Shown here: piece after piece, positions 16,018-63,948 of the stretch | Numbering within the stretch: position 1 is the stretch's first letter | Layout: every line of letters begins with the position of its first letter | DNA from: Gigantopelta aegis | Lineage: Eukaryota > Mollusca > Gastropoda > Neomphalida > Peltospiridae | NCBI RefSeq assembly: GCF_016097555.1 | Contig: NC_054701.1 | Span: 3,617,688-3,681,687 of the forward strand | Direction of reading: 5' to 3' | DNA: 64,000 nucleotides | Made by a program: the position numbers and the translations under genes | Notes under the pieces: model-generated | Seen by the model: only the letters and a program-made list of their open reading frames with translations | Told to the model about the DNA's origin: nothing | Database searches by the model: none

Positions 16018-16544
16018 CTACAGGCGGTGCAGGAAGGATGAAATAGTCTTATGCTGTGACACATTCATTTATTTTAGCCCTAGTACTCAAAATAAATACC
16101 AAAAATTATCATATTCATTCAACTTACAATTATTAGTGTACATTGGCTGATTTTTTAATTTTCATAAATTTGTATATACTTTTAATAATGTATATTGGGC
16201 ATTTAAGGAAAATGTAGCATATATGATACATGTTATTAACTTTGTAAAATACATTGTTATGGCATATATATGTGTGTCAAAAATAAAGTCCAAGACCATA
16301 AGATAAAATAATTTTTATCTCAGACACTTGATAGAAAGTAAGTAGACTGCGCGCCCCTCTTTTGAAGGAAAAGTTTGCCTTCGTGCCCCTCCAACTTGTT
16401 TTGGTGCCCAAATGTTTTATATTAAAAAAAAGGCAACACTTGTCGTGCCTACCCCCCCCCCCCCCCCCCCCCGTGAAATTCGACCTGTTACAATACTATT
16501 GTGAGTATGTTAGCTTTATCACCGTGTGTACGAAGAAGCTACAA
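16018..16544. other. No gene seen; poly-C tract
   Basis: Contains a run of about 22 C at 16451-16472. Otherwise AT-rich, and possibly part of the last ARH intron. Confidence 0.4.
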
Positions 16545-17000
16545 ACAATATAGTCCATGCATGACATTATCATTTGAACATGCTCGTTGGTTTTGTATCA
16601 AACAATATAGTCCATGCATGACATTATCATTTGAACATGCTCGTTGGTTTTGTATCAAACAGTATAGTCCATGCATGACATTATCATTTGAACAAGCTCG
16701 TTGGTTTTGTATCAAACAGTATAGTCCATGCATGACATTATCATTTGAACATGCTCGTTGCTTTTGTATCAAACAGTATAGTCCATGCATGACATTATCA
16801 TTTGAACATGCTCGTTGGTTTTGTATCAAACAGTATAGTCCATGCATGACATTATCATTTGAACATGCTCGTTGGTTTTGTATCAAACAGTATAGTCCAT
16901 GCATGACATTATCATTTGAACATGCTCGTTGCTTTTGTATCAAACAGTATAGTCCATGCATGACATAATCATTTGAACAAGCTCGTTGGTTTTGTATCTA
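16545..17000. repeat. 57-bp tandem repeat, 8 copies
   Basis: The unit is acaatatagtccatgcatga then cattatcatttgaacatgct then cgttggttttgtatcaa. 57 is a multiple of three, so both strands show long open frames that are artefacts. Confidence 0.95.
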
Positions 17001-17614
17001 ACAGTTGTTCATACCACAGTTTCACACTTTGGCTTGAATGCACCTCTCTCCATTAAATTTAAATAACTGAAAAAGAAAACACATAAACTTGTATAATTAT
17101 AAATATTATTTGTTTAAAGTAACTGCGACTTTTTAACAGAATTATGCATTTAACATAGCAAGGTTAACAAACAAGATAAGTCAAAACAGGAACTTATTAG
17201 ATTATCAGTTACCATGTTGCTGATGTTAAGTAAACTGACACAGCTGGTTACACCCATTTATTTTAAACAAAACTCCAGATAGTTGCTGTAAACAAGTCTA
17301 ATTAGCAAACTAAGAGAAAGAAAATGTATGTCCATCGAAGAGCAACTTCACACTAATTCACTCTTCAACTGTCTTAGGAATCCATTCAATTAGAAATACT
17401 CAAGTATATGCAATCCTCATTAACTGTAGAATAACTAGTAGCATGAAACACGCTAACTTTACCGTTTGTTCCTAGCGTTTCAGTGACATGAAAGGGAAGC
17501 AAGGAATTTCTCTAACATTTGGTTATTGCGACATTTGGCGTAGATCAAGAAAAAGGTAAAAAAGCTGACACTTCATAAGCCACTCTTGCCAAACATCAAC
17601 TTTTCATTGTACTT
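17001..17614. other. No feature recognised
   Basis: No exon could be supported firmly. A weak phase-compatible terminal exon for the minus-strand gene near 17470-17512 was considered. Confidence 0.35.
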
Positions 17615-17930
17615 TCTCATAGGACAGTCCATACCATGACCTTTGATATTACTTGATGTATTTTCTCAGCCCATACCAAGGACTTTGATATTAGTTAATT
17701 TTCTATGTATTTTGTCACACAAGAAGTTTATACACCAGACTTTAATATTAGTTAATTTCCTATCCATTTTTTTCACAGACAGGACAGTGCATACCAAGGA
17801 CTTAGAAATTAGTTAATTTTCTATGCTTTTTCTCACAGGACAGTTCATACCAAAGATATTAGTTGATTTTCTATTAGTTTTCTCAGACAAGACTGCCCAC
17901 ACCAAGGACTGTGATGTTACTTGATATTAA
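17615..17930 (-). repeat. Degenerate about 58-bp repeat derived from a SINE central domain, about 5 copies
   Basis: Units run 'tctcacaggacagtccatac' then 'caaggactttgatattagtt'. The first part is the reverse complement of the SINE central domain seen at 3160-3474, so an antisense SINE fragment seems to have been tandemly amplified. Confidence 0.6.
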
Positions 17931-35656: not shown

Positions 35657-38600
35657 GTAAGGTTACATCATTTATTCGTATAAGGTAACTATTCCCGGTG
35701 TTGTATTTTCGTCAGTACTCTAATCTCGATATTTGTCAGTTTATCACACTCACAGTTTACGCACACGCATGCATTCAAACACACAACCCCTGAAATTAAG
35801 AAAATTACCACGGCAAAAAATTTGCCTTGGAAAAATAGTGCCCACGACATTTTATACGGCAATTTTTCCGTTAATATGTTTGCAACTCTGGATTGTAAGG
35901 AAATTTTAATGATAAATTTGTTATTTGTGTTGTTTGCCAATAAGCTGGTAAGATTAATTTATACCAGTCACGGTATTTGTTGACGGAAAAATATCCGCCG
36001 GGTCCCCCCTTCCCCTAACCCTAACCCTAACCTTAACTCCCAACCCTAACCCCAACCCTAGCCCCAACCCCAACCATAACCCCAACCCCAACCCCAACCC
36101 TAACCCCAACCCCAACCCCAACCCCAACCCTAACCCTCAACCCTCAAAATAATAATGGAGGGGACCGGGTGGATATTATACCCCTCAACCCTCAACCCTA
36201 ACTAAAAATAATAATGGAGGGGACCGGGCGGATATTATACCGTTTGGTTATCATATTTTTGTGTGTTGGTAGACTTTGAGAAAAGACATACTCCTTATTT
36301 TGTTTTTATTGCTTACATAAAATATAACTTTTATTGTGTCTATCAAACATACAAATGGATACAGATATTGGACAAAATAGAGGCTGTTAAAAATACTGTT
36401 ATATTACGTTATGGTAACTGTCGTAAATGTTTCGTCAATTGCTTTTTCGTACACAATGCGGCTTGTTTTCTTTGATGTCCAGTGTGCAGACTGATCGTTG
36501 TTTTTTTGTGTGGAAAAAAGTGCATTTGGAAATAGCGGAGATAGGTGCTGGAAAATAAAGAGGGGCGCTCAAAAATAAAGGAGTGCGGGGAACATGAAAG
36601 GAGGGCGGCAAAATGGAATAACGGGGTGGGGCGCCCCGCTTAAATGGAGCAGCGAGAACACTGTATATGATGTGCCAGTTCAATCTTTTATCTTTTAAAT
36701 TTAATTATATTACATCAAAGTGTCAGAATATATTTAATTCGATATAGAATTTGGAAAAATATCCGCCCAGTCTCCCCCTCCCCTAACCCTAACCCTAAGC
36801 CTCGCCCTAACCCTAACTAAAAGGAGGGGGGAGATCGGGAGCATATTATACCCTCCTTTGAAATCCAAGTAAGCCACTCGGCACCCAGCGTTAAAAATTA
36901 ACATAAAAATCAGCAGGGCCAGTTGAAGAAAAATCGTACTGGCCCTTCTCAAATTCAACTAGCCCTCCAAGTATCACACTGAAATTCATATAATTCATAT
37001 AAAAACATGTTATTAAGTTTTAAACCCATACCAACTCAAATAAAAGAAAAATTTAAAAAGAAATCAAGTATAAATAAAAAGGCTACTTTACAGAGTACCA
37101 TTAAATTATAAATATTAAATCTAATTTTTATACAGGGTGAAGGCAAAATGCTAGAAATAGAACAGCCAAGGTATGCTGCTTGACTTGCATTGTCTCTTAA
37201 GTAAAAGATAACGCAGTACAAAGATACTAAAGGTAGAACTGCGCGTGCTTTAATAAACTAGTCTGAGAATGTCAGTCCTTGTGGCGATGCAAGAGGGATG
37301 GAATAAACTTTGTGGCGATGCAAGAAGGGTGACATCCCCCAGTAAATGATTTCTTCGAGAGTGGCTTTTCTCTTATAGATAAGGCACTAGATAGAGATCC
37401 ATAGAATCAGCCATTATTTTTCCAAATGCCCATTCGATTCTGCATTGTGTAGAGATATGGCCCTTGTCATGTATTACGCTTTTCTCGTTCAGATTACCTT
37501 GGATGTTCCATCAATTGCCTTAAAACCTGTGTCAGAACAAAAAAGAGTTAACATATATATATGCAGTTTGATGGTAATTTGTAAATAATTTTTGTTTTAA
37601 TTTACACTGAACTTTTACCCCAATAAAATGTTATTTGAGATGGTATGGGTTTAAAATGTAACAAATTAATATATGTTTTATATCAATGTTATCTTTATTC
37701 ATTATTTTGGCACTGTAAAAATATAGAAAATGTTCTGTCTTCTGCTGCCAGATCTGTAATGTTTTGTCACATTCGATTCAGTTTTAACGTGTTTCTTTTT
37801 CAACTGGTACCATACTCGCGAGACCCTAAAATCGGACTTGGGTGGTTCAAATGTATTTAAAAACATAAACTGATTTTCATTTTCATTTTTGATATATGAT
37901 ACTTTTACAGGGCACAATATTTCACAAAAACTGTTGTTCTGTTCGCAATGAAAGTGTAAGTCAGTTTATGTTTTTAAATACATTTGAACCACCAATGTAG
38001 CACAGAACTGTAGTACAAATTTTTTAGGATTAGGTAGGCCTAACACATAGGTTATGAGAACTATATTCACGTGAACTGACTTACGGTTACATATAATTTT
38101 AAAACATTGTCCCCTGCTTTAAATTTTAGAATGTAATTATGTAATTGTTCACCACGTACCCAATTGGCAGTTCTCGTGATTTTAAAGTTGCGTAACCAAC
38201 ACGCGAACTGAACAACGGTTCTCGTGAAAAATTGTGCCCTGTAAAATAAAGCCTCGTTAAAAAAACCCCAGCTGATTGTGGAATTATGCTATAAAAATTT
38301 AAATACGATTCATATTTGGTTTGGTTAGCAACATGTTAAATGGTGTAGAAGGATAAACCTGCGTATTTATTTAATTTCAGTGCCGTTAGCGCTACAAGTT
38401 GAACCTGTTGGACGATGGTTTGAGGCATACAGTCAGCGTCTTCACAGCAAACATTCTGTTTCTCAGCATTCTTTGTCGAGCTCGAGCTCGGATGAAAGTG
38501 ACGATGATCAGTTGTTTGATAACGAAGACACAAGTGAAGCGCTGCTACTAGGACTTGATCCTAAGGAGTGGAAGGTGTTTACAAGTTTACTCAGTATTTT

Positions 38601-40873
38601 CACAAATACATTCAGGGCTAGCTCTGAGTGACAAAAATTTTCGCCAAATTATCTTTAAAAAAAAAATGCTAAGCCTCTGGCTATTTTCCAACAAAATATT
38701 AATTATAACACTTTTTTTTTCCCATCAAATTACAATGAAATTTGCTAAATGTTATTAAAATTTGCAATTGACAAATTTGTCGAGTGGCAGAGCTAGCCTG
38801 GATACATTTATTACAGTAACATGATTTCTCATATATTTTGTCAAATACCTTTATTACAGTAACATGATTTCTCATATATTTTGTCAAATACCTTTATTAC
38901 AGTAACATGATTTCTCATATATTTTGTCAAATACCTTTATTACAGTAACATGATTTCTCATATATTTTGTCAAATACCTTTATTACAGTAACATGATTTC
39001 TCATATATTTTGTCACATACATTTATTACAGTAACATGATTTCTCATATATTTTGTCAAATACATTTATTACAGTAACATGATTTCTCATATATTTTGTC
39101 AAATACATTTATTACAGTAACATGATTTCTCATATATTTTGTCAAATACATTTATTACAGTAACATGATTTCTCATATATTTTGTCAAATACCTTTATTA
39201 CAGTAACATGATTTCTCATATTTTGTCACATACATTTATTACAGTAACATGATTTCTCATATTTTGTCACATACATTTATTACAGTAACATGATTTCTCA
39301 TATATTTTGTCAAATACCTTTATTACAGTAACATGATTTCTCATATTTTGTCACATACATTTATTACAATAACATGATTTCTCATATATTTTGTCAAATA
39401 CCTTTATTACAGTAACATGATTTCTCATATTTTGTCACATACATTTATTACAATAACATGATTTCTCATATTTTGTCAAATACCTTTATTACAGTAACAT
39501 GATTTCTCATATTTTGTCACATACATTTATTACAATAACATGATTTCTCATATATTTTGTCAAATAAATTTATTACAGTAACATGTATATTCTTTATTTG
39601 GCTTCCAAGAACACTATCCAGTTGTGTGATTTAATTAATGGTAAAGTTTGTACATGTTGGTTAGTTATTAGTAAATATTTAGTAAGTTAATTTTCATTGT
39701 TTATGTGGATAGTTGGTGAGTCACCAGAGGACTAGCCGATTGCTAATTGTTAATACTTTTGTAGTTTGGATGTAGAACTTTGCAGAAAATTCGCTTAGCT
39801 TACTGTTACTACTTTTTAAGTTTTAATTTTCTGAATATTGGCTAAAGCATATTCACTGACTTTTTAAACTGATATTTGCTTAATTTCTGTATTTTTTTCT
39901 TTGCATTTGCTGTACATACATATGTGTACATTATTCAGTTTGCCAGTGCCATAACTGTTTTGTGAATTTTGTTTTCAGTATTTCTTAATTTAGACAGACT
40001 TATCTTTTATTTTGTAGCAACAAGATCACTATGCAGTGCTAGGATTGAAAAGGTTGCGCTACAAGGCAACAGAAGATCAAATTAAACGTGCTTGTAAGTC
40101 ATTCTTACTGGTACCCGGAGAAGCTAGGTTATATTTGTAAGGTGAAGTCACTTCTCCCTGTTAAGTTTAAGAGAAAGAACTTTTCAACAGGAGAGAGAGA
40201 TGATTTATCCTTAAAAAGAAACGCCCCTCCCAAAATAGTTAAATATTAAAAAACCCTCAAGTAAAGAACTTATTTTAACCCAATATTATTTTGGAAAATT
40301 TACTATTTTGACATTTATTTGTATGTTTAGCATACAGATTTTTTCAATGTAAGAAAGTCTTCCAAAAACTATCTCTGACAAATAACATGTAAGCCCTGAA
40401 TACACACTGGCATCAGAAGTGGTGTTAGGGGGGCACCAAGTTTGGTAATTATTCTTATTTATTCAATGTGATTATGTTATGCATCTACTTACAGACAAGA
40501 AAAAGGTTTTACGGCACCACCCTGACAAGAGAAAAGCTCGGGGACTCAAAGTGAAAGATGGCGAAGATGACTATTTCACATGCATTACACGAGGTATACT
40601 CACATCAGCTGTTAACAGTGTTCATTGTGTTGTATGCGTATTGTATCACTACAAGGTTTAATCATATCTATTTTCTACTTTGCTTCAAATGTGCATTCTG
40701 TTTGCCATGTTGAACTGTAAAATGCAGTATCATAATGTAAATAATCATGAAACAAATTCCTGGTATATTTTTAAAACTAAATGTGACCACTGCAGTTGCT
40801 CTGTTTTAATTTTTTTGTGAAAGGTGGTTATTTGTGAATCTGTTGTGAACATTTATGTATATGTATATGTATG

Positions 40874-49905: not shown

Positions 49906-52900
49906 CTGTCTCTCTGTCTGTGTCTATGTAACTGACTGTCCATCTGCGTATAGTTATTATTTTGTTACGTGATAATTTGGTATCACGTAATGTAATATAT
50001 CATCAGACTTCAAACATCCAGACAACATAGAAATGGGGTCCATTCATACAGCCATTTATTAATTTTTCACTGGCCATTTTCATCACCAGAAATTTTTAGT
50101 TACAGGTTCTTACTGGCTTAATGTATTTTGGTGTTTTGTTTTTCAGTTCTGTTATTTTGAGACCTTTTCAGTTGAAAACAATTATCATAGTTTGTTCTTT
50201 TTGCATCATTTCGGCTGTCACACACTGATTTCACATTTACTGCAGGTTAAAGAACTGAACAGAAAAGTGGAAAAAGAAAAGATGGAGCAGTTGTCAGCTA
50301 TGAAGAGATCAGCAGGAGGGGAAGGGGGGAGGGACAAGAAGAAGTGGAACGAAATGGAAGTGCAGTTTCTTATTAAAGCGGTGAATCTGTTTCCAGCTGG
50401 CACCCAGGACCGGTGAGCTTGCACTGTTATCATGTCGCAATGAATACAAACCAAAATTCATATACATAGGATGGGGTTTGGGCTTTTTTACAAAGAATTT
50501 CATACTGATTAAATTACATGGTATGTGCTGTCAATAGTGTCATGTGTGGCAAAATATGTATAAAACATTCCCAGATGCTAATGTAAAGGCTTTTTTCTTT
50601 AACCATTATGATCTGATGTAAAATTGCAGTAATCTAACAGTATCATACATGATGTTGAACATTTCTTGTCGAGGCATACAGCTGAGTGAACTAGCTGAAG
50701 CGTATGCAACTTTCATGTCCAGAATCCACACACTACCAAAGTCCTCATATTACCAACTTCTTCTTTAACTATATACCATTTGAATGGGAAAGACTTAGAT
50801 TTTAGTAAACTTTCAATGTATAATTTAATTACATACTTTTGGAAGAGTGTGACTGTTTAAAGCGTTGAGTGTAGAATTTTAAAGTTTTATAAGCAGAATG
50901 CCATGACGTCGTGTGATTGTATTAATTTGGTCACAGTTCTTCATTTCTTTATCGCTGTGTTTCAGATGGGATGTCATAGCCAAATTCATTGGACAACACG
51001 TAGAAGGCAGTGACAAAAATGCTAAAGATGTCCTTGCCAAGGCTAAAGAATTACAGAAAAATGGTAAACTAAAGTTTAAAATGTAAAATAGTTAATTGAA
51101 GTTCCATCCTCAAAAAATTCATGGTTCAGTCTTAATTTTTCTGTCTAATATTGTGAACCAAATAAGCCAGTTAAAAATTCTATTAATTCAAATTTTTTCA
51201 ATTCTAAGCATTCAAATAAATTCAGTGTAATTAATATTTCCTTTGATTAGGTAATCTTTGAAATTTTAAACAATAACAAAAGCACATGCAAGTGTTGTTC
51301 AGGGGTTTTATAAATGTGTATTGTAGGACCATGTGTTGAGGGGGTTTGTTCTCATTTCAGATTTTGCACTCAAAGAAGATGCACAAAAACGTGCGTATGA
51401 ACATTTTGTCAAGGAGCATAAAGTGGCTGCATCAAGTGTACAAGACCAGCCAAGTCAAAGAATGGAAAGTGAGTGTGCACTGTCTGTCTTTGTTCATCCA
51501 TCCATCCATCTGGAGGTCCATCTATTTTTGGGTGTGCAAATTACAAACTGTGCTTTGTCACCAATGTTTGTTTGAAGGTCATTTAATTCTGTTCAGACAT
51601 GTATTTTACATTTTTACTTCACAAATGGCATAGGCAGCACAATGTGTGTTATCTTGGGCATTTCACTTGGCCCAAATTACTTTCATGGTTGATACAAGAT
51701 GTCAAGTACCATAGATTCTGTCGGATATGGGGTGGGGTGGGGTGGAAGTAACAGGGAGGAGACTCAGAATGAGGAGGAGGATATAGGAGTTTTGTAAAAA
51801 GTTAGACATGTTTTATCAGTGTTTGAGTTACATATGTGTATATTAGCTATCTGACAGAAGAGTGAGTAATATCAAGCTGTGATTGTCCCCTAGGTGTGGT
51901 TGAAGTTATGTTAGTTATAAGAGTGGGTTATATCAAGCTGTGATTGTCCTCTATGTGTGGTTGAAGTTACGTTGTTATAAGAGTGGGTTATATCAAGCTG
52001 TGATTGTCCTCTAGGTGTGGTTGAAGTTACGTTAGTTATAAGAGTGGTTTATATCAAGCTGTGATTGTCCCCTAGGTGTGGTTGAAGTTACGTTAGTTAT
52101 AAGAGTGGTTTATATCAAGCTGTGATTGTCCCCTAGGTGTGGTTGAAGTTACGTTAGTTATAAGAGTGGTTTATATCAAGCTGTGATTGTCCCCTAGGTG
52201 TGGTTGAAGTTACGTTAGTTATAAGAGTGGTTTATATCAAGCTGTGATTGTCCCCTAGGTGTGGTTGAAATTACGTTAGTTATAAGAGTGGTTTATATCA
52301 AGCTGTGATTGTCCCCTAGGTGTGGTTGAAATTATGTTAGTTATAAGAGTGGTTTATATCAAGCTGTGATTGTCCCCTAGGTGTGGTTGAAATTATGTTA
52401 GTTATAAGAGTTGTTTACCTCAAGCTGTGATTGTATCCTAGGTGTGGTTGAAGTTATGTTAGTTGTAAGAGTGGGTTATATTAAGCTGTGATTGTCCTCT
52501 AGGTGTGATTGAAGTTACGTTAGTTATAAATGAGTAACATCAAGCTGTGATTGTCCCCTAGGTGTGGTTGAAGGTATGTTAGTTATAAGAGTGGTTTATA
52601 TCAAGCTGTGATTGTACCCTAGGTGTGGTTGAAGTTATGTTAGTTATAAGTGAGTAACATCAAGCTGTGATTGTCCCCTAGGTGTGGTTGAAGTTATGTT
52701 AGTTATAAGAGTGGTTTATATCAAGCTGTGATTGTCCCCTAGGTGTGGTTGAAGTTATGTTAGTTATAAGAGTGGGTTATATCAAGCTGTGATTGTCCCC
52801 TAGGTGTGGTTGAAGTCATGTTAGTTGTAAGAGTGGTTTATATCAAGCTGTGATTGTCCTCTAGGTGTGGTTGAAGTTATGTTAGTTATAAGAGTGGTCT

Positions 52901-55900
52901 ATATCAAGCTGTGATTGTCCCCTAGGTGTGGTTGAAGTTATGTTAGTTATGAGAGTGGGTTATATCAAGCTGTGATTGTCCTGTAGGTGTGGTTGAAGTT
53001 ATGTTAGTTATAAGTGAGTAACATCAAGCTGTGATTGTCCCCTAGGTGTGGTTGAAGTTATGTTAGTTATATGAAGCTGTGATTGTCCTCTGTGTGTGGT
53101 TGGTTACGTTAGTTATAAGAGTGGGTTATATCAAGCGGTGATTGTCCCCTAGGTGTGGTTGAAATTATGTTAGTTATAAGAGTGGTTTATATCAAGCTGT
53201 GATTGTCCCCTAGGTGTGGTTGAAATTATGTTAGTTATAAGAGTGGTTTATATCAAGCTGTGATTGTCCCCTAGGTGTGGTTGAAATTATGTTAGTTATA
53301 AGAGTGGTTTATATCAAGCTGTGATTGTACCCTAGGTGTGGTTGAAATTATGTTAGTTATAAGAGTGGGTTATATTAAGCTGTGATTGTCCTCTAGGTGT
53401 GGTTGAAATTATGTTAGTTATAAATGTGGTAACATCAAGCTGTGATTGTCCCCTAGGTGTGGTTGAAGGTATGTTAGTTATAAGAGTTGTTTACCTCAAG
53501 CTGTGATTGTCCTCTAGGTGTGATTGAAGTTACGTTAGTTATAAATGAGTAACATCAAGCTGTGATTGTCCCCTAGGTGTGGTTGAAGGTATGTTAGTTA
53601 TAAGAGTGGTTTATATCAAGCTGTGATTGTACCCTAGGTGTGGTTGAAGTTATGTTAGTTATAAGAGTGGGTTATATCAAGCTGTGATTGTCCCCTAGGT
53701 GTGGTTGAAGTCATGTTAGTTGTAAGAGTGGTTTATATCAAGCTGTGATTGTCCCCTAGGTGTGGTTGAAGTTATGTTAGTTATGAGAGTGGGTTATATC
53801 AAGCTGTGATTGTCCTGTAGGTGTGGTTGAAGTTATGTTAGTTATAAGTGAGTAACATCAAGCTGTGATTGTCCCCTAGGTGTGGTTGAAGTTATGTTAG
53901 TTATATGAAGCTGTGATTGTCCTCTGTGTGTGTTGAAGTTATGTTAGTTATAAGAGTGGGTTATATCAAGCTGTGATTGTCCCCTAGGTGTGGTTGAAAT
54001 TATGTTAGTTATAAGAGTGGTTTATATCAAGCTGTGATTGTCCCCTAGGTGTGGTTGAAATTATGTTAGTTATAAGAGTGGTTTATATCAAGCTGTGATT
54101 GTCCCCTAGGTGTGGTTGAAATTATGTTAGTTATAAGAGTGGTTTATATCAAGCTGTGATTGTCCCTAGGTGTGGTTGAAGTTATGTTAGTTATAAGTGA
54201 GTGGGTTATATCAAGCTGTGATTGTCCCCTAGGTGTGGTTGAAGTTATGTTAGTTATAGTTATAAGAGTGGGTTATATCAAGCTGTGATTGTCCCCTAGG
54301 TGTGGTTGAAGTTATGTTAGTTATAAGAGTATATCAAGCTGTGATTGTAGGTGTGGTTGAAGTTAGTTAGTTATAAGGGTTATATCAAGCTGTGATTGTC
54401 CCCTAGGTGTGGTTGAAATTATGTTAGTTATAAGAGTGGTTTATATCAAGCTGTGATTGTCCCCTAGGTGTGGTTGAAGTTATGTTAGTTATAAGAGTGG
54501 TTTATATCAAGCTGTGATTGTCCCCTAGGTGTGGTTGAAATTATGTTAGTTATAAGAGTGGTTTATATCAAGCTGTGATTGTACCCTAGGTGTGGTTGAA
54601 ATTATGTTAGTTATAAGAGTGGGTTATATCAAGCTGTGATTGTCCTCTAGGTGTGGTTGAAGTTATGTTAGTTATAAGTGAGTAACATCAAGCTGTGATT
54701 GTCCCCTAGGTGTGGTTGAAGTTATGTTAGTTATAAGAGTTGTTTATATCAAGCTGTGATTGTCCCCTAGGTGTGGTTGAAGTTATGTTAGTTATAAGAG
54801 TGGGTTATATCAAGCTGTGATTGTCCTCTAGGTGTGGTTGAAGTTATGTTAGTTATAAAGTGTTATCAAGCTGTGAGTTATGTGGTTGAAGTTATGAGTT
54901 ATAAGAGTGGTTTATATCAAGCTGTGATTGTCCCCTAGGTGTGGTTGAAGGTATGTTAGTTATAAGAGTGGTTTATATCAAGCTGTGATTGTCCCCTAGG
55001 TGTGGTTGAAGTTATGTTAGTTATAAGTGAGTAACATCAAGCTGTGATTGTCCCCTAGGTGTGGTTGAAGTTATGTTAGTTATAAGAGTGGGTTATATCA
55101 AGCTGTGATTGTCCCCTAGGTGTGGTTGAAGTTATGTTAGTTATAAGAGTGGTAACATCAAGCTGTGATTGTCCCCTAGGTGTGGTTGAAGTTATGTTAG
55201 TTATATCAAGCTGTGATTGTCCTCTAGGTGTGGTTGGTTACGTTTATAGTTATAAGCGGTGATTGTCCCCTAGGTGTTTGAAATTATGTTAGTTATAAGA
55301 GTGGTTTATATCAAGCTGTGATTGTCCCCTAGGTGTGGTTGAAATTATGTTAGTTATAAGAGTGGTTTATATCAAGCTGTGATTGTCCCCTAGGTGTGGT
55401 TGAAATTATGTTAGTTATAAGAGTGGTTTATATCAAGCTGTGATTGTACCCTAGGTGTGGTTGAAATTATGTTAGTTATAAGAGTGGGTTATATTAAGCT
55501 GTGATTGTCCTCTAGGTGTGATTGAAGTTACGTTAGTTATAAATGAGTAACATCAAGCTGTGATTGTCCCCTAGGTGTGGTTGAAGTTATGTTAGTTATA
55601 AGAGTTGTTTACCTCAAGCTGTGATTGTCCCCTAGGTGTGGTTGAAGTTATGTTAGTTATAAGAGTGGGTTATATTAAGCTGTGATTGTCCTCTAGGTGT
55701 GATTGAAGTTACGTTAGTTATAAATGAGTAACATCAAGCTGTGATTGTCCCCTAGGTGTGGTTGAAGTTATGTTAGTTATAAGAGTGGTTTATATCAAGC
55801 TGTGATTGTCCCCTAGGTGTGGTTGAAGTTATGTTAGTTATAAGAGTGAGTAACATCAAGCTGTGATTGTCCCCTAGGTGTGGTTGAAGTCATGTTAGTT

Positions 55901-58900
55901 ATAAGAGTGGGTTATATCAAGCTGTGATTGTACCCTAGGTGTGGTTGAAGTTATGTTAGTTATAAGAGTGGTCTATATCAAGCTGTGATTGTCCCCTAGG
56001 TGTGGTTGAAGTTATGTTAGTTATGAGAGTGGGTTATATCAAGCTGTGATTGTCCTGTAGGTGTGGTTGAAGTTATGTTAGTTATAAGTGAGTAACATCA
56101 AGCTGTGATTGTCCCCTAGGTGTGGTTGAAGTTATGTTAGTTATATGAAGCTGTGATTGTCCTCTGTGTGTGGTTGGTTACGTTAGTTATAAGAGTGGGT
56201 TATATCAAGCGGTGATTGTCCCCTAGGTGTGGTTGAAATTATGTTAGTTATAAGAGTGGTTTATATCAAGCTGTGATTGTCCCCTAGGTGTGGTTGAAAT
56301 TATGTTAGTTATAAGAGTGGTTTATATCAAGCTGTGATTGTCCCCTAGGTGTGGTTGAAATTATGTTAGTTATAAGAGTGGTTTATATCAAGCTGTGATT
56401 GTACCCTAGGTGTGGTTGAAATTATGTTAGTTATAAGAGTGGGTTATATTAAGCTGTGATTGTCCTCTAGGTGTGATTGAAGTTACGTTAGTTATAAATG
56501 AGTAACATCAAGCTGTGATTGTCCCCTAGGTGTGGTTGAAGGTATGTTAGTTATAAGAGTTGTTTACCTCAAGCTGTGATTGTACCCTAGGTGTGGTTGA
56601 AGTTATGTTAGTTATAAGAGTGGGTTATATTAAGCTGTGATTGTCCTCTAGGTGTGATTGAAGTTACGTTAGTTATAAATGAGTAACATCAAGCTGTGAT
56701 TGTCCCCTAGGTGTGGTTGAAGGTATGTTAGTTATAAGAGTGGTTTATATCAAGCTGTGATTGTACCCTAGGTGTGGTTGAAGTTATGTTAGTTATAAGT
56801 GAGTAACATCAAGCTGTGATTGTCCCCTAGGTGTGGTTGAAGTCATGTTAGTTATAAGAGTGGGTTATATCAAGCTGTGATTGTCCTGTAGGTGTGGTTG
56901 AAGTTATGTTAGTTATAAGTGAGTAACATCAAGCTGTGATTGTCCCCTAGGTGTGGTTGAAGTTATGTTAGTTATATGAAGCTGTGATTGTCCTCTGTGT
57001 GTGGTTGGTTACGTTAGTTATAAGAGTGGGTTATATCAAGCTGTGATTGTCCTCTAGGTGTGGTTGAAGTTATGTTAGTTATAAGAGTGGTTTATATCAA
57101 GCTGTGATTGTCCCCTAGGTGTGGTTGAAATTATGTTAGTTATAAGAGTGGGTTATATCAAGCTGTGATTGTCCTGTAGGTGTGGTTGAAGTTATGTTAG
57201 TTATAAGTGAGTAACATCAAGCTGTGATTGTCCCCTAGGTGTGGTTGAAATTATGTTGGTTATAAGAGTGGGTTATATCAAGCTGTGATTGTCCTCTAGG
57301 TGTGGTTGAAGTTATGTTACTTATAAGTGAGTAACATCAAGCTGTGATTGTCCCCTAGGTGTGGTTGAAGTTATGTTAGTTATAAGAGTGGTTTATATCA
57401 AGCGCTAATTGTCCCCTAGGTGTGGTTGAAATTATGTTAGTATAAGAGTGGGTTATATTAAGCTGTGATTGTCCCCTAGGTGTGGTTAAAGTTAAGTTAG
57501 TTATAAGAATGGTTTATATCAAGATGTGATTGTCCCCTAGGTGTGGTTGAAGTTATGTTAGTTATAAGAGTGGTTTATATCAAGCTGTGATTGTCCCCTA
57601 GGTGTGGTTGAAGTTATGTTAGTTATAAGAGTGGGTTATATCAAGCTGTGATTGTCCCCTAGGTGTGGTTGAAGTTATGTTAGTTATAAGAGTGGTTTAT
57701 ATCAAGCTGTGATTGTCCCCTAGGTGTGGTTGAAATTATGTTATAAGAGTGGTTTATATCAAGCTGTGATTGTCCCCTAGGTGTGGTTGAAGTTATGTTA
57801 GTTATAAGAGTGGTTTATATCAAGCTGTGATTGTCCCCTAGGTGTGGTTGAAATTATGTTAGTTATAAGAGTGGTTTATATCAAGCTGTGATTGTCCCCT
57901 AGGTGTGGTTGAAGTTATGTTAGTTATAAGAGTGGTTTATATCAAGCTGTGATTGTCCTCTAGGTGTGGTTAAAGTTATGTTAGTTATAAGAGTGGTTTA
58001 TATCAAGCGCTAATTGTCCCCTAGGTGTGGTTGAAATTATGTTAGTATAAGAGTGGGTTATATTAAGCTGTGATTGTCCCCTAGGTGTGGTTAAAGTTAA
58101 GTTAGTTATAAGAGTTGTTTATATCAAGATGTGATTGTCCCCTAGGTGTGGTTGAAGTTATGTTAGTTATAAGAGTGGTTTATATCAAGCTGTGATTGTC
58201 CCCTAGGTGTGGTTGAAGTTATGTTAGTTATAAGAGTGGGTTATATCAAGCTGTGATTGTCCCCTAGGTGTGGTTGAAGTTATGTTAGTTATAAGAGTGG
58301 TTTATATCAAGCTGTGATTGTCCCCTAGGTGTGGTTGAAATTATGTTATAAGAGTGGTTTATATCAAGCTGTGATTGTCCCCTAGGTGTGGTTGAAATTA
58401 TGTTATAAGAGTGGGTTATATCAAGCTGTGATTGTCTGTCGTGTTAGTTAGTTATAAGAGTGGGTTATATCAAGCTGTGATTGTTCTCCAGGTGTAGTTG
58501 AAGTTATGTTGTTACAAGAGTGTGTTATATCAAGCTGTGATTGTCCTCCAGGTGTGGTTGAAGTTACGTTGGTTATGCTGTAATTGTCCTCCAGGTGTGG
58601 TTGAAGTTAGTTGGTTACCGGCCTCGGTGGCGTCGTGGCAGGCCATCGGTCTACAGGCTGGTAGGTACTGGGTTTGGATCCCAGTTGAGGCATGGGATTT
58701 TTAATCCAGATACCGACTCCAAACCCTGAGTGAGTGCTCCGCAAGGCTCAATGGGTAGGTGTAAACCACTTGCACCGACCAGTGATCCATAACTGGTTCA
58801 ACAAAGGCCATGGTTTGTGCTATCCTGCCTGTGGGAAGCGCAAATAAAAGATCACTTGCTGCCTGTCGTAAAAAGAGTAGCCTATGTGGCGACAGCGGGT

Positions 58901-61900
58901 TTCCTCTCAAAATCTGTGTGGTCCTTAACCATATGTCTGACGCCATATAACCGTAAATAAAATATGTTTAGTGCGTCGTTAAATAAAACATTTCTTTCTT
59001 TTTCTGTTATAGTCTAAAAACAGTGTCAGAATGACCATATGTTTGACGTCCAATAGCCGATGATAAGATAAAAAAATCAATGTGCTCTAGTGGCGTCGTT
59101 AAATAAAACAAACTACTTTTTTAGTTAGTTGGTTATGCTGTGATTGTCCTCTAGGTGTGGTGGAAGTTACATTAGTTATAAGAGTGTGTTATATGAGCTG
59201 TGATTGTCCTCTAGGTGTGGTAGACCAGCAGTTGAGGGAAACGGGGATGAACCCCGCCCCGTGGACCACAGATGAGCAGAAGATGTTGGAGCAGGCGTTG
59301 AAGACGTACAATGCAAGCACGCCCGAACGCTGGGAGAAGATCGCAGAGGCCGTGAACACTCGCAGTAAGAAGGACTGCATGAAGAGATACAAGGTAATTG
59401 TATTAACTGTTAGTCATTGTATTAACAATGTTAGTCATCGTCTTAACACTGTTAGTCATTGTATTAACACTGTCAGTACTTGTATTAACACGGTCAGTCA
59501 TTGTATTAACACTGTCATTAACACTGTCAGTCATTGTATTAACACCGTCAGTCATTGTATGAACACTCTTAGTACTTGTATGAACACTGTCAATCATTGT
59601 ATTAACACTGTCAGTACTTGTATTAACACTGTCAGTCATTGTATGAGCACTGTCAATCATTGTATGAACACTGTTAGTACTTGTATTAACACTGTCAGTC
59701 ATTGTATGAACACTGTCAATCATTGTATTAACACCGTCAGTCATTGTATGAACACTGTTAGTACTTGTATTAACACTGTCAGTCATTGTATGAACACTGT
59801 CAGTCATTATATGAACACTGTTAGTACTTGTATTAACACTGTCAGTCATTGTATTAACACCGTCAGTCATTGTATGAACACTGTTAGTACTTGTATTAAC
59901 ACTGTCAGTCATTGTATGAACACTGTCAGTCATTGTATTAACACCGTCAGTCATGTATGAACACTGTTAGTCATTGTCTTAACACTGTCAGTACTTGTAT
60001 TAACAAACACTGTTAGTACTTGTATTAACACTGTCAATCATTGTATGAACACTGTCAGTACTTGTATTAACACTGTCAGTCATTGTATTAACACTGTCAG
60101 TACTTGTATTAACACTGTCAGTACTTGTATTAACACTGTCAGTCATTGTATGAACACTGTTAGTCATTGTCTTAACACTGTCAGTACTTGTATGAACACT
60201 GTCAGTCATTGTATTAACACTGTCAGTACTTGTATGAACACTGTCAGTCATTGTATGAACACTGTCAGTCATTGTATGAACACTGTTAGTCATTGTATTA
60301 ACACTGTCAGTCATTGTATTAACACCGTCAATCATTGTATGAACACTGTTAGTCATTGTCTTAACACTGTCAGTACTTGTATGAACACTGTCAGTACTTG
60401 TATTAACACTGTCAGTACTTGTATTAACACTGTCATTAACACTGTCAGTCATTGTATGAACGCTGTTAGTCATTGTATTAACACTGTCAGTACTTGTATG
60501 AACACTGTCAGTACTTGTATTAACACTGTCATTAACACTGTCAGTCATTGTATGAACACTGTTAGTCATTGTATTAACACTGTCAGTCATTGTATTAACA
60601 CTGTTAGTCATTGTCTTAACACTGTCAGTACTTGTATGAACACTGTCAGTACTTGTATGAACACTCAGTCATTGTATGAACACTGTCAGTCATTGTATTA
60701 ACACTGTCAGTCATTGTATGAACACTGTCAGTACTTGTATTAACACTGTCAGTACTTGTATTAACACTGTCAGTACTTGTATTAACACCGTCAGTCATTG
60801 TATGAACACTGTTAGTCATTGTCTTAACACTGTCAGTACTTGTATTAACACTGTCAGTACTTGTATGAACAAACACTGTTAGTACTTGTATTAACACTGT
60901 CAATCATTGTATGAACACTGTCAGTACTTGTATTAACACTGTCAATCATTGTATGAACACTGTCAGTACTTGTATTAACACTGTCAGTCATTGTATTAAC
61001 ACTGTCAGTACGTGTATTAACACTGTCAGTACTTGTATTAACACCGTCAGTCATTGTATGAACACTGTTAGTCATTGTCTTAACACTGTCAGTACTTGTA
61101 TGAACACTGTCAGTCATTGTATTAATACTGTCAGTACTTGTATGAACACTGTCAGTCATTGTATGAACACTGTCAGTCATTGTATGAACACTGTTAGTCA
61201 TTGTATTAACACTGTCAGTCATTGTATTAACACCGTCAATCATTGTATGAACACTGTTAGTCATTGTATGAACGCTGTTAGTCATTGTATTAACACTGTC
61301 AGTACTTGTATGAACACTGTCAGTACTTGTATTAACACTGTCATTAACACTGTCAGTCATTGTATGAACGCTGTTAGTCATTGTATTAACACTGTCAGTC
61401 ATTGTATGAACACTGTTAGTCATTGTATTAACACTGTCAGTCATTGTATTAACACTGTTTGTCATTGTCTTAACACTGTCAGTACTTGTATGAACACTGT
61501 CAGTCATTGTATTAACACTGTCAGTCATTGTATTAACACCGTCAATCATTGTATGAACACTGTTAGTCATTGTATGAACGCTGTTAGTCATTGTATTAAC
61601 ACTGTCAGTACTTGTATGAACACTGTCAGTACTTGTATTAACACTCATTAACACTGTCAGTCATTGTATGAACGCTGTTAGTCATTGTATTAACACTGTC
61701 AGTCATTGTATGAACACTGTTAGTCATTGTATTAACACTGTCAGTCATTGTATTAACACTGTTTGTCATTGTCTTAACACTGTCAGTACTTGTATGAACA
61801 CTGTCAGTCATTGTATTAACACTGTCAGTCATTGTATTAACACTGTCAGTCATTGTATTAACACTGTCAGTACTTGTATGAACACTGTCAGTACTTGTAT

Positions 61901-63948
61901 TAACACTGTCAGTACTTAGTAATTGTATTAACACTGTCAGTACTTGTATTAACACTGTCAGTACTTGTATTAACACTGTCAGTACTTGTATTAACACCGT
62001 CAGTCATTGTATGAACACTGTTAGTCATTGTCTTAACACTGTCAGTACTTGTATTAACACTGTCAGTACTTGTATGAACACTGTCAGTACTTGTATTAAC
62101 ACTGTCAGTACTTGTATTAACACTGTCATTAACACTGTCAGTCATTGTATGAACGCTGTTAGTCATTGTATTAACACTGTCAGTACTTGTATGAACACTG
62201 TCAGTACTTGTATTAACACTGTCATTAACACTGTCAGTCACTGTATGAACACTGTCAGTCATTGTATTAACACTGTCAGTCATTGTATTAACACTGTCAG
62301 TCATTGTCTTAACACTGTCAGTACTTGTATGAACACTGTCAGTACTTGTATGAACACTGTCAGTCATTGTATGAACACTGTCAGTCATTGTATTAACACT
62401 GTCAGTCATTGTATGAACACTGTCAGTACTTGTATTAACACTGTCAGTACTTGTATTAACACTGTCAGTACTTGTATTAACACCGTCAGTCATTGTATGA
62501 ACACTGTTAGTCATTGTCTTAACACTGTCAGTACTTGTATTAACACTGTCAGTACTTGTATGAACAAACACTGTTAGTACTTGTATTAACACTGTCAATC
62601 ATTGTATGAACACTGTCAGTACTTGTATTAACACTGTCAATCATTGTATGAACACTGTCAGTACTTGTATTAACACTGTCAGTCATTGTATTAACACTGT
62701 CAGTACTTGTATTAACACTGTCAGTACTTGTATTAACACCGTCAGTCATTGTATGAACACTGTTAGTCATTGTCTTAACACTGTCAGTACTTGTATGAAC
62801 ACTGTCAGTCATTGTATTAATAGTGTCAGTACTTGTATGAACACTGTCAGTCATTGTATGAACACTGTCAGTCATTGTATGAACACTGTTAGTCATTGTA
62901 TTAACACTGTCAGTCATTGTATTAACACCGTCAATCATTGTATGAACACTGTTAGTCATTGTCTTAACACTGTCAGTCATTGTATGAACGCTGTTAGTCA
63001 TTGTATTAACACTGTCAGTCATTGTATGAACACTGTTAGTCATTGTATTAACACTGTCAGTCATTGTATTAACACTGTTTGTCATTGTCTTAACACTGTC
63101 AGTACTTGTATGAACACTGTCAGTCATTGTATTAACACTGTCAGTCATTGTATTAACACTGTCAGTACTTGTATGAACACTGTCAGTACTTGTATTAACA
63201 CTGTCAGTACTTAATACAAGTACTGACAGTGTTAATACAAGTACTAACACTGTCAGTACTTGTATTAACACCGTCAGTCATTGTATGAACACTGTTAGTC
63301 ATTGTCTTAACACTGTCAGTACTTGTATGAACAAACAATACAACACTGTCAATCATTGTATTAACACTGTCAATCATTGTATGAACACTGTCAGTACTTG
63401 TATTAACACTGTCAGTACTTGTATTAACACTGTCAATCATTGTATGAACACTGTCAGTACTTGTATTAACACTGTCAATCATTGTATGAACACTGTTAGT
63501 ACTTGTATGAACACTGTCAGTCATTGTATGAACACTTGGTAGCACGCTGACCACTGGGAAAAGATAGCTGAATCTGTGAACACCCACAGTAATGACTGTA
63601 TGACGAGATACACAATAATTGTATTAACACTGTTAAGTGAGAAAAGAAATGGAAATTGCTAAATAAAATTAAAGTGCGGTTTGGGGTGGTGATGTGAATA
63701 AATGTTTAAAAACCCATTAAAATGTTGCAGTTTGATATTTTAAATTAACAGACATTTAAAAGGAGAGAGTTTTTGTTAAGTCTTTTATTGGATTATGTAT
63801 TGCCTTTTTTGTGTGCCTCAGTATATATTGAGCTTGCCTCCAGGTATTGCATTTTACATCATTCATTTTACATCTGTAGGAAATCTGTGAAATGGTTCGA
63901 GCTAAGAAGGCAGCTGTTGAAGCTGCAGCCAAGGAGAAGAAGTCTTGA
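35602..63948 (+). CDS. DNAJC2: DNAJC2 (zuotin / MPP11 / ZRF1) Hsp40 co-chaperone, complete coding region
   Basis: Eighteen exons join in phase into 1,863 bp, or 620 residues, close to the vertebrate protein (about 621). Order: N-terminal [12 protein letters not shown] block (about 24-35); acidic Ser-rich stretch; J domain (about 84-155) with HPD at 117-119 in HHPDKRK; zuotin-homology region with [13 protein letters not shown]; Lys/Glu-rich helix (about 280-360); SANT1 (about 446-500, W448); SANT2 (about 553-605, W555); basic C-terminus. The protein is the J-domain partner of an atypical Hsp70 in the ribosome-associated complex, stimulating its ATPase near the exit tunnel. The SANT-bearing animal form also acts on chromatin at ubiquitinated H2A. 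Introns carry MITEs, SINEs, telomere-like DNA and five minisatellites; introns 16 and 17 are almost wholly array. It is divergent from the ARH-like gene. Confidence 0.95.
35985..36240. mobile_element. Telomere-type (CCCTAA)n tract enclosed by inverted repeats
   Basis: Left arm ggaaaaatatccgccgggtc and right arm ggaccgggcggatattatac are inverted repeats. Between them lie CCCTAA units decaying into CCCCAA and CCCTCA (36012-36150). The right arm with a short CCCTCAA stretch is itself duplicated. It lies in DNAJC2 intron 1. A related structure is at 36749-36852. Confidence 0.7.
36749..36852. mobile_element. Second, shorter copy of the CCCTAA element
   Basis: ggaaaaatatccgcccagtc, then about five CCCTAA-like units (36779-36818), then ggaggggggagatcgggagc and atattatacc. 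The same arm-core-arm order as the 35985 copy, with a shorter core. Confidence 0.65.
37841..37993. repeat. Perfect 33-bp inverted repeat
   Basis: 37841-37873 (ggtggttcaaatgtatttaa + aaacataaactga) is the exact reverse complement of 37961-37993. The loop is 87 bp. The right arm lies inside the 37908-38241 MITE and the left arm outside it. Confidence 0.9.
37908..38241. mobile_element. MITE with about 38-bp CAGGGCACAA inverted ends
   Basis: Left end cagggcacaatatttcacaa and reverse-complemented right end cagggcacaatttttcacga continue to match through 'aac.gttgttc.gttcgc'. TA lies on both sides. 334 bp, no coding potential. DNAJC2 intron 1. Confidence 0.8.
38381..38574 (+). CDS. DNAJC2: DNAJC2 exon 2
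   Basis: 194 bp after acceptor ttaatttcag, ending AAG|gtgttt. Encodes residues 19-83: [20 protein letters not shown], then a Ser/Asp/Glu-rich stretch ([16 protein letters not shown]) and GLDPKEWK, the segment preceding the J domain in zuotins. Confidence 0.93.
38803..39585. repeat. 43-bp minisatellite, about 18 copies, in DNAJC2 intron 2
   Basis: The unit is tttattacagtaacatgatt then tctcatatattttgtcaaat and acc. 41-bp variants lack 'at'. Each unit contains 'tttattacag', an acceptor-like string on the sense strand, but it is not similar to the real exon 3 acceptor. Confidence 0.95.
40018..40093 (+). CDS. DNAJC2: DNAJC2 exon 3 (start of J domain)
   Basis: 76 bp; acceptor ttattttgtag, donor GCTT|gtaagt. 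Encodes [20 protein letters not shown] then QIKRA: J-domain helix I, and helix II start. Confidence 0.95.
40495..40593 (+). CDS. DNAJC2: DNAJC2 exon 4 (HPD motif)
   Basis: 99 bp; acceptor atctacttacag, donor CGAG|gtatac. Encodes [20 protein letters not shown] followed by DYFTCITR. The HPD tripeptide (117-119) needed to stimulate Hsp70 ATPase is intact. Confidence 0.96.
40594..41741 (+). other. DNAJC2 intron 4, left part, with TA/TG microsatellite
   Basis: 40861-40925 is a (TA)n/(TG)n/(AC)n simple repeat. The remainder is AT-rich with no exon; short frames at 40855 and 41382 have no support. Confidence 0.6.
41742..42390. repeat. 46-bp minisatellite, about 13 copies, in DNAJC2 intron 4
   Basis: The unit is gggttcccatgatctcaggg then cacggaacccaaaaacagct and tccgat. 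Each unit has the dyad gggttcc...ggaaccc around 15-17 bases. Copies are very uniform (mostly c/g and t/c changes), suggesting recent expansion. Confidence 0.95.
42840..42984 (+). CDS. DNAJC2: DNAJC2 exon 5
   Basis: 145 bp; acceptor ttttgttacag, donor GCAAG|gtaatc. Encodes [20 protein letters not shown] followed by [12 protein letters not shown]: the end of the J domain and the start of the zuotin-homology region. Confidence 0.96.
43115..43198 (+). CDS. DNAJC2: DNAJC2 exon 6
   Basis: 84 bp; acceptor gactacag, donor TTTTG|gtgagt. Encodes [20 protein letters not shown] then DLNDFFAF. Confidence 0.96.
43255..43403. mobile_element. Foldback (hairpin) repeat in DNAJC2 intron 6
   Basis: gatactccccaagtgtcttg at the left and the reverse complement of the right arm (gaataccccacttgtgtctt) pair over about 60 bp. 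Both arms include 'ttgataaa.tat' and 'atttat.agcac'. A palindromic element with a loop of about 20 bp. Confidence 0.75.
43845..43925 (-). mobile_element. Antisense SINE tail fragment
   Basis: gaatgaatgtttaacgacac followed by atatcggcttttgggtgtca is the reverse complement of a SINE tail (tgacgtccaatagccgatga .. gtcgttaaa) like that at 59075-59110. Confidence 0.6.
44163..44228 (+). CDS. DNAJC2: DNAJC2 exon 7
   Basis: 66 bp; acceptor actatttgcag, donor GAAAA|gtaagt. Encodes [20 protein letters not shown] plus E; the split W and N codons are completed by neighbours. Confidence 0.96.
44292..45127. mobile_element. TTAA-flanked non-autonomous DNA transposon, copy 2
   Basis: 836 bp, the same ends (agggacacaccctagttacg .. 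aactagggtgtgtggct) and the same orientation as 33036-33844. Flanked by TTAA at 44288-44291 and 45128-45131. It differs from copy 1 by small insertions such as an extra 'taat' and 'ctgtgcgcact'. It lies 60 bp after exon 7. Confidence 0.88.
45470..45949. repeat. About 95-bp tandem repeat, 5 copies, in DNAJC2 intron 7
   Basis: The unit starts ttgattaacacaggggctat, passes through cagaatcgttaaaacagcaa and ends cagaatgaccatgggataat. Copies differ by short 'cacaaa' insertions. Confidence 0.9.
45985..46240 (-). mobile_element. Antisense SINE in DNAJC2 intron 7
   Basis: Read on minus, cattccacccagtgctccac and atgtgggatgctgcacataa match the central domain of the 3160 SINE. The tail 'ccatataactgtaaataaaa' matches the 58618 element. 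The tRNA-like head is not preserved. Confidence 0.75.
46282..46373 (+). CDS. DNAJC2: DNAJC2 exon 8
   Basis: 92 bp; acceptor attatttcag, donor GTCG|gtaatg. Encodes [20 protein letters not shown] then [10 protein letters not shown]. Read-through into the intron would add eight codons and stop. Confidence 0.95.
46374..47358 (+). other. DNAJC2 intron 8
   Basis: No repeat array or element was recognised; AT-rich with a short C-run at 47157. Confidence 0.6.
47359..47480 (+). CDS. DNAJC2: DNAJC2 exon 9
   Basis: 122 bp; acceptor taatttgacag. Encodes [20 protein letters not shown] and a charged helix ending AEEEER. The donor AGG|gttcgt is weak (no A at +3), but the frame meets a stop soon after it and the phase fits exon 10. 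Confidence 0.9.
47481..48206 (+). other. DNAJC2 intron 9
   Basis: AT-rich; no further feature recognised. Confidence 0.5.
48207..48275 (+). CDS. DNAJC2: DNAJC2 exon 10
   Basis: 69 bp; acceptor ctgtttcag, donor CAGCAG|gtgggg. Encodes [20 protein letters not shown] plus RQQ, a charged single-helix segment. Confidence 0.93.
48606..48686 (+). CDS. DNAJC2: DNAJC2 exon 11
   Basis: 81 bp; acceptor cttgtattgcag, donor TTGAAG|gtagcc. Encodes [20 protein letters not shown] then TLRACLK. Confidence 0.94.
48925..49013 (+). CDS. DNAJC2: DNAJC2 exon 12
   Basis: 89 bp; acceptor ttgtttcag, donor ACCAG|gtaaac. Encodes [20 protein letters not shown] then KLSEMLSLT. Confidence 0.95.
49331..49400 (+). CDS. 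DNAJC2: DNAJC2 exon 13
   Basis: 70 bp; acceptor tttgtttcag, donor CAT|gtacgt. Encodes [20 protein letters not shown] then FHQH. Confidence 0.94.
49440..49935. repeat. (CT)n-rich low-complexity tract in DNAJC2 intron 13
   Basis: About 500 bp of CT, CTGT and CTAC repeats. All three frames look open as Leu/Ser/Val/Cys-rich protein; these are artefacts. The sense strand is a very long pyrimidine tract. Confidence 0.95.
50246..50412 (+). CDS. DNAJC2: DNAJC2 exon 14 (SANT1, first half)
   Basis: 167 bp; acceptor tttactgcag, donor GACCG|gtgagc. Encodes [20 protein letters not shown], a Gly-rich linker, then [20 protein letters not shown] and AGTQD: helix 1 and the start of helix 2 of the first SANT domain. 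Confidence 0.96.
50413..50965 (+). other. DNAJC2 intron 14
   Basis: Intron sequence without recognised repeats or elements. Confidence 0.6.
50966..51063 (+). CDS. DNAJC2: DNAJC2 exon 15 (SANT1, second half)
   Basis: 98 bp; acceptor gctgtgtttcag, donor AATG|gtaaac. Encodes [20 protein letters not shown] then [13 protein letters not shown]. Confidence 0.96.
51361..51468 (+). CDS. DNAJC2: DNAJC2 exon 16
   Basis: 108 bp; acceptor ctcatttcag, donor GAAA|gtgagt. Encodes [20 protein letters not shown] then [16 protein letters not shown], the linker between the SANT domains. Confidence 0.95.
51469..51861 (+). other. DNAJC2 intron 16, non-repeat start
   Basis: Nothing recognised apart from a G-rich stretch near 51730-51780. 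Confidence 0.6.
51862..58604 (+). repeat. 61-bp array of the exon 17 splice acceptor, about 110 copies
   Basis: The unit is gtgtggttgaagttatgtta then gttataagagtggtttatat then caagctgtgattgtccccta and g. The string 'ctgtgattgtcc.ctag|gtgtggt' is the same as the functional acceptor of exon 17 at 59199-59221. The repeat therefore contains the 3' end of the intron plus about 7 exon bases. Variants include shortened units ('gttatatgaagctgtg') that recur in blocks, showing higher-order duplication (for example 53041-53110, 53881-53935, 56131-56170, 56965-57010). Confidence 0.97.
58618..59122 (+). mobile_element. Composite tRNA-derived SINE inserted in the acceptor array
   Basis: The tRNA-like head starts ccggcctcggtggcgtcgtg, with a B-box-like gggtttggatccc. 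The central domain has gaccagtgatccataactgg and a first tail gtcgttaaataaaacatttc. A second tail region follows, ending gtcgttaaataaaacaaact. The 13-bp string agttagttggtta flanks it on both sides (58605-58617 and 59123-59135): a clear target-site duplication made from array sequence. Confidence 0.9.
59136..59214 (+). repeat. Last array unit(s), containing the functional exon 17 acceptor
   Basis: The array resumes after the SINE with tgctgtgattgtcctctag|gtgtggtgg. One further unit ends 'ctgtgattgtcctctag', which is the acceptor of exon 17. Confidence 0.9.
59215..59393 (+). CDS. DNAJC2: DNAJC2 exon 17 (SANT2)
   Basis: 179 bp. Encodes [20 protein letters not shown] then [20 protein letters not shown] and [20 protein letters not shown], the second SANT domain, ending AAG|gtaatt. 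Its acceptor is one of more than 100 near-identical copies upstream, and its donor starts the next array. Confidence 0.96.
59394..63534. repeat. 21-bp array growing from the exon 17 donor, about 195 copies
   Basis: The unit is actgtcagtcattgtattaac with variants cagtactt, tagtcatt, tatgaac and a 12-bp 'cattaacactgt' insertion. The first bases of intron 17 (gtaattgtattaactgttag) already are the repeat. 21 is a multiple of three, so both strands show long INTVSHC or MTDSVNT frames that are artefacts. A marker 'aacaaacactgttagtactt' recurs near 60001, 60868 and 62562, indicating higher-order blocks. Confidence 0.97.
63185..63245. repeat. 28-bp perfect inverted repeat inside the 21-bp array
   Basis: 63185-63212 and 63218-63245 are exact reverse complements (core aacactgtcagtactt) around the loop aatac. 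It is the only place where the array orientation flips, for about 1.5 units. Confidence 0.92.
63541..63614 (+). pseudogene. Decayed duplicate of the DNAJC2 exon 17 3' end
   Basis: Aligns over 74 bases with 59316-59393 (agcacg..tgggaaaagatagct, gtgaacacccacagtaa, gactgtatgacgagatac). It has a 1-base deletion that shifts the frame, a 3-base deletion, and several substitutions. The donor AAG|gtaatt has become ACA|ataatt, so it cannot splice. The following bases (ttgtattaacactgtta) match the intron start, so the array lies between two copies of the same exon/intron junction. Confidence 0.88.
63615..63879 (+). other. End of DNAJC2 intron 17
   Basis: Ordinary AT-rich intron sequence leading to acceptor tttacatctgtag. 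Confidence 0.7.
63880..63948 (+). CDS. DNAJC2: DNAJC2 exon 18 (terminal)
   Basis: Acceptor ttttacatctgtag, then 22 codons [20 protein letters not shown] plus KS and TGA. It completes SANT2 helix 3 (KRYK-EICEMV) and the basic Ala/Lys-rich C-terminus. The 3' UTR runs out of the window. Confidence 0.95.
   Translation, partial: EICEMVRAKKAAVEAAAKEKKS

Follow-up and report, generated by a model that had tools for sequence, protein, structure and literature searches.

A minisatellite in IFI6 (also 6-16 or G1P3) reportedly supplies multiple splice donor sites, as Turri et al. are said to have described in 1995. Known recursive splice sites are isolated and combine a strong tract with a GTRAGT-like donor. 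In the NAGNAG class, the AGs that compete for one exon lie only a few nucleotides apart. The 1995 paper on the IFI6 minisatellite is cited by PMC2572611, PMC2915984 and PMC4526556. An example of intronic minisatellites are the first-intron repeats of the metallothionein genes of earthworms (PMC12783039).

In the DNAJC2 gene of Gigantopelta aegis, exon 17 is preceded by a 61-bp minisatellite whose units carry copies of the acceptor of this very exon. The analysis covered the window, i.e. the whole stretch of 64,000 nucleotides. Two more arrays of this kind are found in the gene next door, so the 61-bp array is no isolated curiosity of DNAJC2. To our knowledge, no acceptor array of such size has been described; this reflects a limited literature search, and absence from print is not claimed. 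The array is most likely a tolerated repeat expansion.

The DNAJC2 gene model

DNAJC2 was modeled on the plus strand with 17 exons (38381-63948), which give a single open frame to the stop codon once joined. The numbering of the exons presupposes one exon upstream of 38381, and the query of the tblastn search was human DNAJC2. The C-terminal part of the gene product matches PDB entry 2m2e, the DnaJ homolog subfamily C member 2. The donor of exon 9 (GTTCGT) is unusual and may be misplaced. Exon 16 (51361-51468, plus strand) ends at the donor GGAAA/GTGAGT and was placed by tblastn and by in-frame joining with the 16 other exons. The last exon (63880-63948, plus strand) was placed by open-frame joining.

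Exon 17 (59215-59393, plus strand) contains the start of the second SANT/Myb domain. It was located by reading frame and domain search and is preceded by TCCTCTAG. Judging from the reading frame and the consensus, its boundary would lie at 59215. The sequence-only reading had taken the last copy of the array as the functional acceptor, and the full DNAJC2 reading frame obtained with 59215 agrees with this. The exon is 179 nt long and has the highest GC content of the 17 modeled DNAJC2 exons (0.559; array: 0.377). Its donor AAG/GTAATT scores 8.64 with the local donor matrix, from which exon 9 (GTTCGT), exon 17 (as tested exon) and exon X were excluded.

The 61-bp array of intron 16

The array extends from 51858 to 58617 (plus strand; TRF, core-motif count) and contains 107 decoy acceptors of the form AG/GTGT. 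It shows the head-to-tail units of about 10-100 bp and the many copies that define a minisatellite, with 110.0 copies of 61 bp reported by TRF between 51858 and 58576. By core-motif count, 115 units run from 51879 to 59200, the inferred real site being included as the last one. A length of exactly 61 bp is found in 69 of the 115 units and 59 bp in 20, which places the array outside the NAGNAG/short tandem acceptor class. AG/GTGT is retained in 108 of the 114 decoy units (by eye, six of the 115 units lack it) and mostly reads AG/GTGTGG. Across the interval it occurs 110 times: 107 times in 51858-58617, at 59155, at 58759 in a SINE-like insert and at the inferred real site 59215. The earlier claim that more than 100 tandem acceptor copies precede exon 17 is thereby borne out. 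An array of 110 copies is not a chance event.

In a typical unit, the pyrimidine stretch and the AG recur together with some 7-10 bases of the exon, into which the last unit continues. The sequence-only reading had also held that the copies span the first exon bases along with the acceptor. This is confirmed by CTGTGATTGTCCTCTAG/GTGTGGT (-17 to +7), which occurs 11 times, in the inferred real site and in ten other copies. When one C/T position is left free, the same stretch occurs 76 times. Decoy 57964 shares the longest exact match with the real site (19 intron and 7 exon bases). The repeat has two traits of a splice-site minisatellite of the IFI6 type: its units carry the splice site, and it overlaps the exon/intron boundary, the last unit reaching at least +7 of exon 17. 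That type also involves the use of several units as splice sites in mRNA.

For the unit alignments, two of the 115 units, of odd length, were excluded. Among the remaining 113, there are 61 distinct unit haplotypes. The decoy A is kept in 95.6% and the decoy G in 94.7% of these units, and with a retention of about 95% there is no sign of the decoys being purged. The acceptor part of the unit is not significantly more conserved than the rest (19 substitution types in 31 core columns vs 29 in 30 others, P 0.15). The mean pairwise identity is 0.69 for the exon-side units (n=5, the last one entering the exon) vs 0.87 in a set of 90 units. Blocks of as many as 541 bp are repeated exactly within the array; the copies of the longest lie 3074 bp apart. 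As the exon-side units are the most diverged and the large exact blocks lie upstream, the pattern fits an array that grew at its intron side.

The array also contains six AAG/GTATGT sites (52574, 53469, 53589, 54951, 56542 and 56723), each located 12 nt past a decoy acceptor. Their score of 9.5 is that of a strong donor, and pairing with the respective decoy acceptor could yield micro-exons of 12 nt.

Between two copies of AGTTAGTTGGTTA (at 58605 and 59123), which form a 13-bp direct repeat, lies an insert (58618-59122, plus strand) that divides the array from its last two units and was absent from the sequence-only reading. We take it to be SINE-like from its appearance, which resembles that of molluscan SINEs. 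The best AG of intron 16 by the local matrix sits in this insert, before 59013, and is one more site that splicing must pass over. The last two units (59123-59214, plus strand) lead up to exon 17 and contain the decoy acceptor before 59155, which is in frame and open.

Consequences of decoy use and acceptor strength

When exon 16 is joined to each of the 110 AG/GTGT sites, 69 joins read 16 codons and then a stop, and 17 joins read 11 codons. A frame that is open across exon 17 results only from the joins at 59155 and 59215; all others stop earlier. It had been proposed that a decoy join reads 16 codons and ends at TGA. This stands for 69 of the 110 joins and fails at the penultimate copy 59155, which is in frame, adds 60 nt (20 codons) and causes no truncation. 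A leak to this copy would give a 20-residue in-frame insertion.

Acceptor strength was scored with a matrix of 21 other acceptors of the two modeled genes, a small set that makes the scores rough. Exon 17 and the minus-strand exons B and E were excluded from the matrices as tested sites, and the first version was also built without exons X and D. The real site at 59215 is weak. Its score of 2.92 falls below 20 of the 21 other local acceptors (leave-one-out 0.1-17.3). The array decoys have a median score of -1.06, and 9 of the 107 reach or exceed the score of the real site (second matrix version). With the first version, the real site scores 3.66 and ranks 44th among 698 AGs, and 8 of the 109 other AG/GTGT sites score at least as high. 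The real site exceeds the decoy median in both versions, and a weak difference in strength is possible.

The proposal that something marks the last site found no backing in the stretch from -17 to +7, where ten other copies are identical to the inferred true site. The discrimination must therefore come from outside that stretch. No clear mark emerged from the predicted RNA openness either: over -20 to +3 (300-nt windows), 63% of the 107 decoys are at least as open as the real site. For the AG alone, the real site is predicted to be more open than 75% of the 107 decoys. The Rfam search of the window gave zero matches at gathering scores.

Acceptor arrays in the neighboring gene

The neighboring ADP-ribosylglycohydrolase-like gene lies on the minus strand and was modeled with eight exons. 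It is supported by a Pfam match in one exon and by matches to MJ1187 and other PDB chains. Its last exon (17066-17009) was located by motif only. A 57-bp array (16542-17005) lies 3 nt past the stop codon of this last modeled exon (minus strand).

The first modeled intron, between exons A and B, is filled by a 44-bp minisatellite (27339-30369, minus strand; TRF, motif count) that starts 21 nt past the donor and extends to the acceptor. The acceptor is part of its units, along with about 24 nt from exon B. The motif AG/ATCTAT is found 65 times with the real one included, which leaves 64 decoys. The real site is equaled or surpassed in score by nine of these 64, and translation across a decoy join would end after 5 to 67 codons. 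Exon B (27189-27338, minus strand) starts with the 24 nt ATCTATGGGAAAGTGTGTAATAAA (K/IYGKV), of which 22 positions match the array unit (by eye). As the exon start K/IYGKV aligns with KKLYGFV of the archaeal MJ1187, the simplest order is that the exon edge existed first and then seeded the 44-bp array.

A 31-bp minisatellite (18946-19254, minus strand; TRF, motif count) lies directly before exon E (18787-18945, minus strand; exon model) and contains nine decoys of the form TTTCAG/GTT. The scores of eight of the nine are no lower than that of the real site, and each decoy join stops after 11 codons. In the 44-bp and 31-bp arrays, too, the unit carries the acceptor of the boundary, as is characteristic of a splice-site minisatellite. 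In total, three acceptor-tiling arrays are found in two genes within 64 kb. A 51-bp minisatellite (20976-25811, minus strand; TRF) ends 17 nt before exon C (20958-20804). It resembles the acceptor-tiling arrays loosely, by eye, does not clearly carry the acceptor of exon C and was not counted as a fourth case.

Placement of the arrays at exon edges

The placement of arrays was compared with chance for the 8 intronic arrays of the two modeled genes that have a unit of at least 20 bp and at least 5 copies. This set leaves out the 57-bp array, a 2.9-copy array at 17672, the TC repeat in intron 13 and the arrays outside both genes. In two tests that were framed post hoc and cover two genes, three of the eight arrays span an acceptor vs 0.82 expected from the unit and remaining intron lengths (P 0.027, mildly above chance), and five of the eight end within 20 nt of an exon vs 1.48 expected at random placement (P ~5e-4). 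Other cut-offs gave 4/8 at 5 nt (P 1e-4), 4/8 at 10 nt (P 0.0013) and 5/8 at 30 nt (P 0.0023). The SINE-like insert was removed from intron 16 in the acceptor-spanning test and counted with the array in the exon-distance test. The 44-bp array adds little to the exon-distance test because it fills its intron.

Of the eight arrays, three are not near an exon, and a 21-bp array is found at a donor. This 21-bp minisatellite (59397-63536, plus strand; TRF) begins 3 nt downstream of exon 17. At its other end it runs up to a decayed sequence (63541-63635, plus strand) that duplicates the 3′ portion of exon 17 together with the beginning of the intron; 76 of 99 aligned columns are identical, and the donor GT is lost. 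The array thus meets an exon edge again, here on the donor side.

Further repeats were observed in the window. A 43-bp array in intron 2 of DNAJC2 (38802-39585), away from exon edges, has the TTTATTACAG motif in its unit, and of the 16 AGs on its plus strand, a single one attains the median score of the local acceptors. CCCCAA-like repeats (36013-36143) and CCCTAA repeats (36781-36817) resemble an interstitial telomere-like stretch.

Probable origin of the array and probable use of the last copy

It is probable that the array arose by a tandem duplication spanning the junction of DNAJC2 intron 16 and exon 17, that it then grew on the intron side in a near-neutral expansion, and that the last copy is used via its exon context. 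The last copy would be chosen by exon definition, as it alone is followed by a real exon with donor, content and GC step. The decoys would mostly be ignored, with some leak, chiefly to 59155, the in-frame copy before the last. The same origin would fit the two acceptor-tiling arrays of the neighboring gene (44 bp and 31 bp). Exon context is favored because the sequence downstream differs (179-nt exon, GC 0.559, donor 8.64). Exon definition alone may not silence the array, since most units themselves offer a middling donor: TAG/GTGTGG scores 6.6 in place (20 real donors, leave-one-out 2.0-9.1). Together with the six AAG/GTATGT sites, these donors make 61-nt pseudo-exons conceivable.

The decoys would also be harmless if splicing were recursive and self-correcting, each decoy join being re-spliced to a later copy and in the end to exon 17, so that the mature mRNA would bear no trace of it. 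As 108 copies read AG/GTGT, a join of exon 16 to a decoy would rebuild the 5′ splice site AAA/GTGTGG, whose score of 4.97 lies within the range of the real local donors but low in it. The in-place score of 6.6 and the AG kept in about 95% of the aligned units are also in its favor, and the 31-bp array would rebuild GAG/GTTGAT (5.53). The AG/GT form may thus permit recursive splicing in the 61-bp and 31-bp arrays. However, it is impossible for the 44-bp array with its AG/AT units, and the decoy acceptors of the 61-bp array are weak (median -1.06 vs 2.92 for the real site). Moreover, 8 of the 25 modeled acceptors of both genes read AG/GT (by eye), so the feature may be incidental. On balance, recursive splicing appears unlikely. 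The broader version, in which arrays arise repeatedly at exon edges here and the AG/GT introns are removed by successive silent re-splicing, making a hundred decoys costless, appears quite unlikely. The boundary itself could have been misjudged, with the true exon 17 starting at 59224 (GTGTGGTAG/ACC) or at 59155 and the AG before 59215 being a decoy as well. Both positions are in frame with exon 16 (59224 by direct reading), and the consensus unit has TG at the AG of 59224, which therefore belongs to the last unit only (by eye). However, 59224 scores -1.07 vs 3.66 for 59215, ranks 304th among 698 AGs and lies 9 nt downstream of a better AG. The site at 59155 scores 2.49 and would add an unusual 20-residue segment. 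Such a shifted start is distinctly doubtful.

Regulated use of the decoys, through which early-stop transcripts would tune the DNAJC2 output or yield a SANT2-less protein, draws on the 108 of 110 joins that stop before exon 17 (exceptions: 59155 and 59215) and on the ten other copies that match the real site from -17 to +7. However, early stops upstream of further exons are expected to lead to decay rather than translation. The like arrangement in an unrelated gene also points to a common mutational origin instead of a DNAJC2-specific switch, and we give regulation little credence. An assembly error as the source of the array or of its copy number is scarcely believable in view of the 61 distinct unit haplotypes among the 113 aligned units, the SINE-like insert with its direct repeat within the array, and the other arrays with different units in the window.

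Comparison with known systems

Tandem duplication at the exon edge, followed by near-neutral growth, remains the preferred reading. If such exon-edge seeding is general in the genome, it would be a route for intron lengthening and splice-site multiplication. Tests of models for 3′ splice site choice (first AG past the branch point, exon definition, exon context) usually involve two or a few competitors. The three introns described here supply about 108, 64 and 9 similar competing acceptors and may be a natural test of splice-site choice.

As in the NAGNAG class, several AGs of the DNAJC2 array compete for one exon, but they are spaced by about 61 bp and number about 108. With recursive splice sites, the array shares the acceptor AG that abuts a GT, so that a donor would be rebuilt. 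It differs in consisting of about 108 weak tandem copies instead of isolated strong sites. Long tandem arrays within an intron are common to DNAJC2 and the earthworm metallothionein genes, whereas the part of PMC12783039 on these repeats does not describe splice sites in the repeat unit. The closest precedent would be the splice-donor minisatellite of IFI6. In both genes, a tandem repeat lies at an exon/intron boundary and its units are splice sites. The units of IFI6 are donors, and downstream ones are reportedly used in the mRNA, whereas those of DNAJC2 are acceptors, more numerous, and known from the sequence alone.
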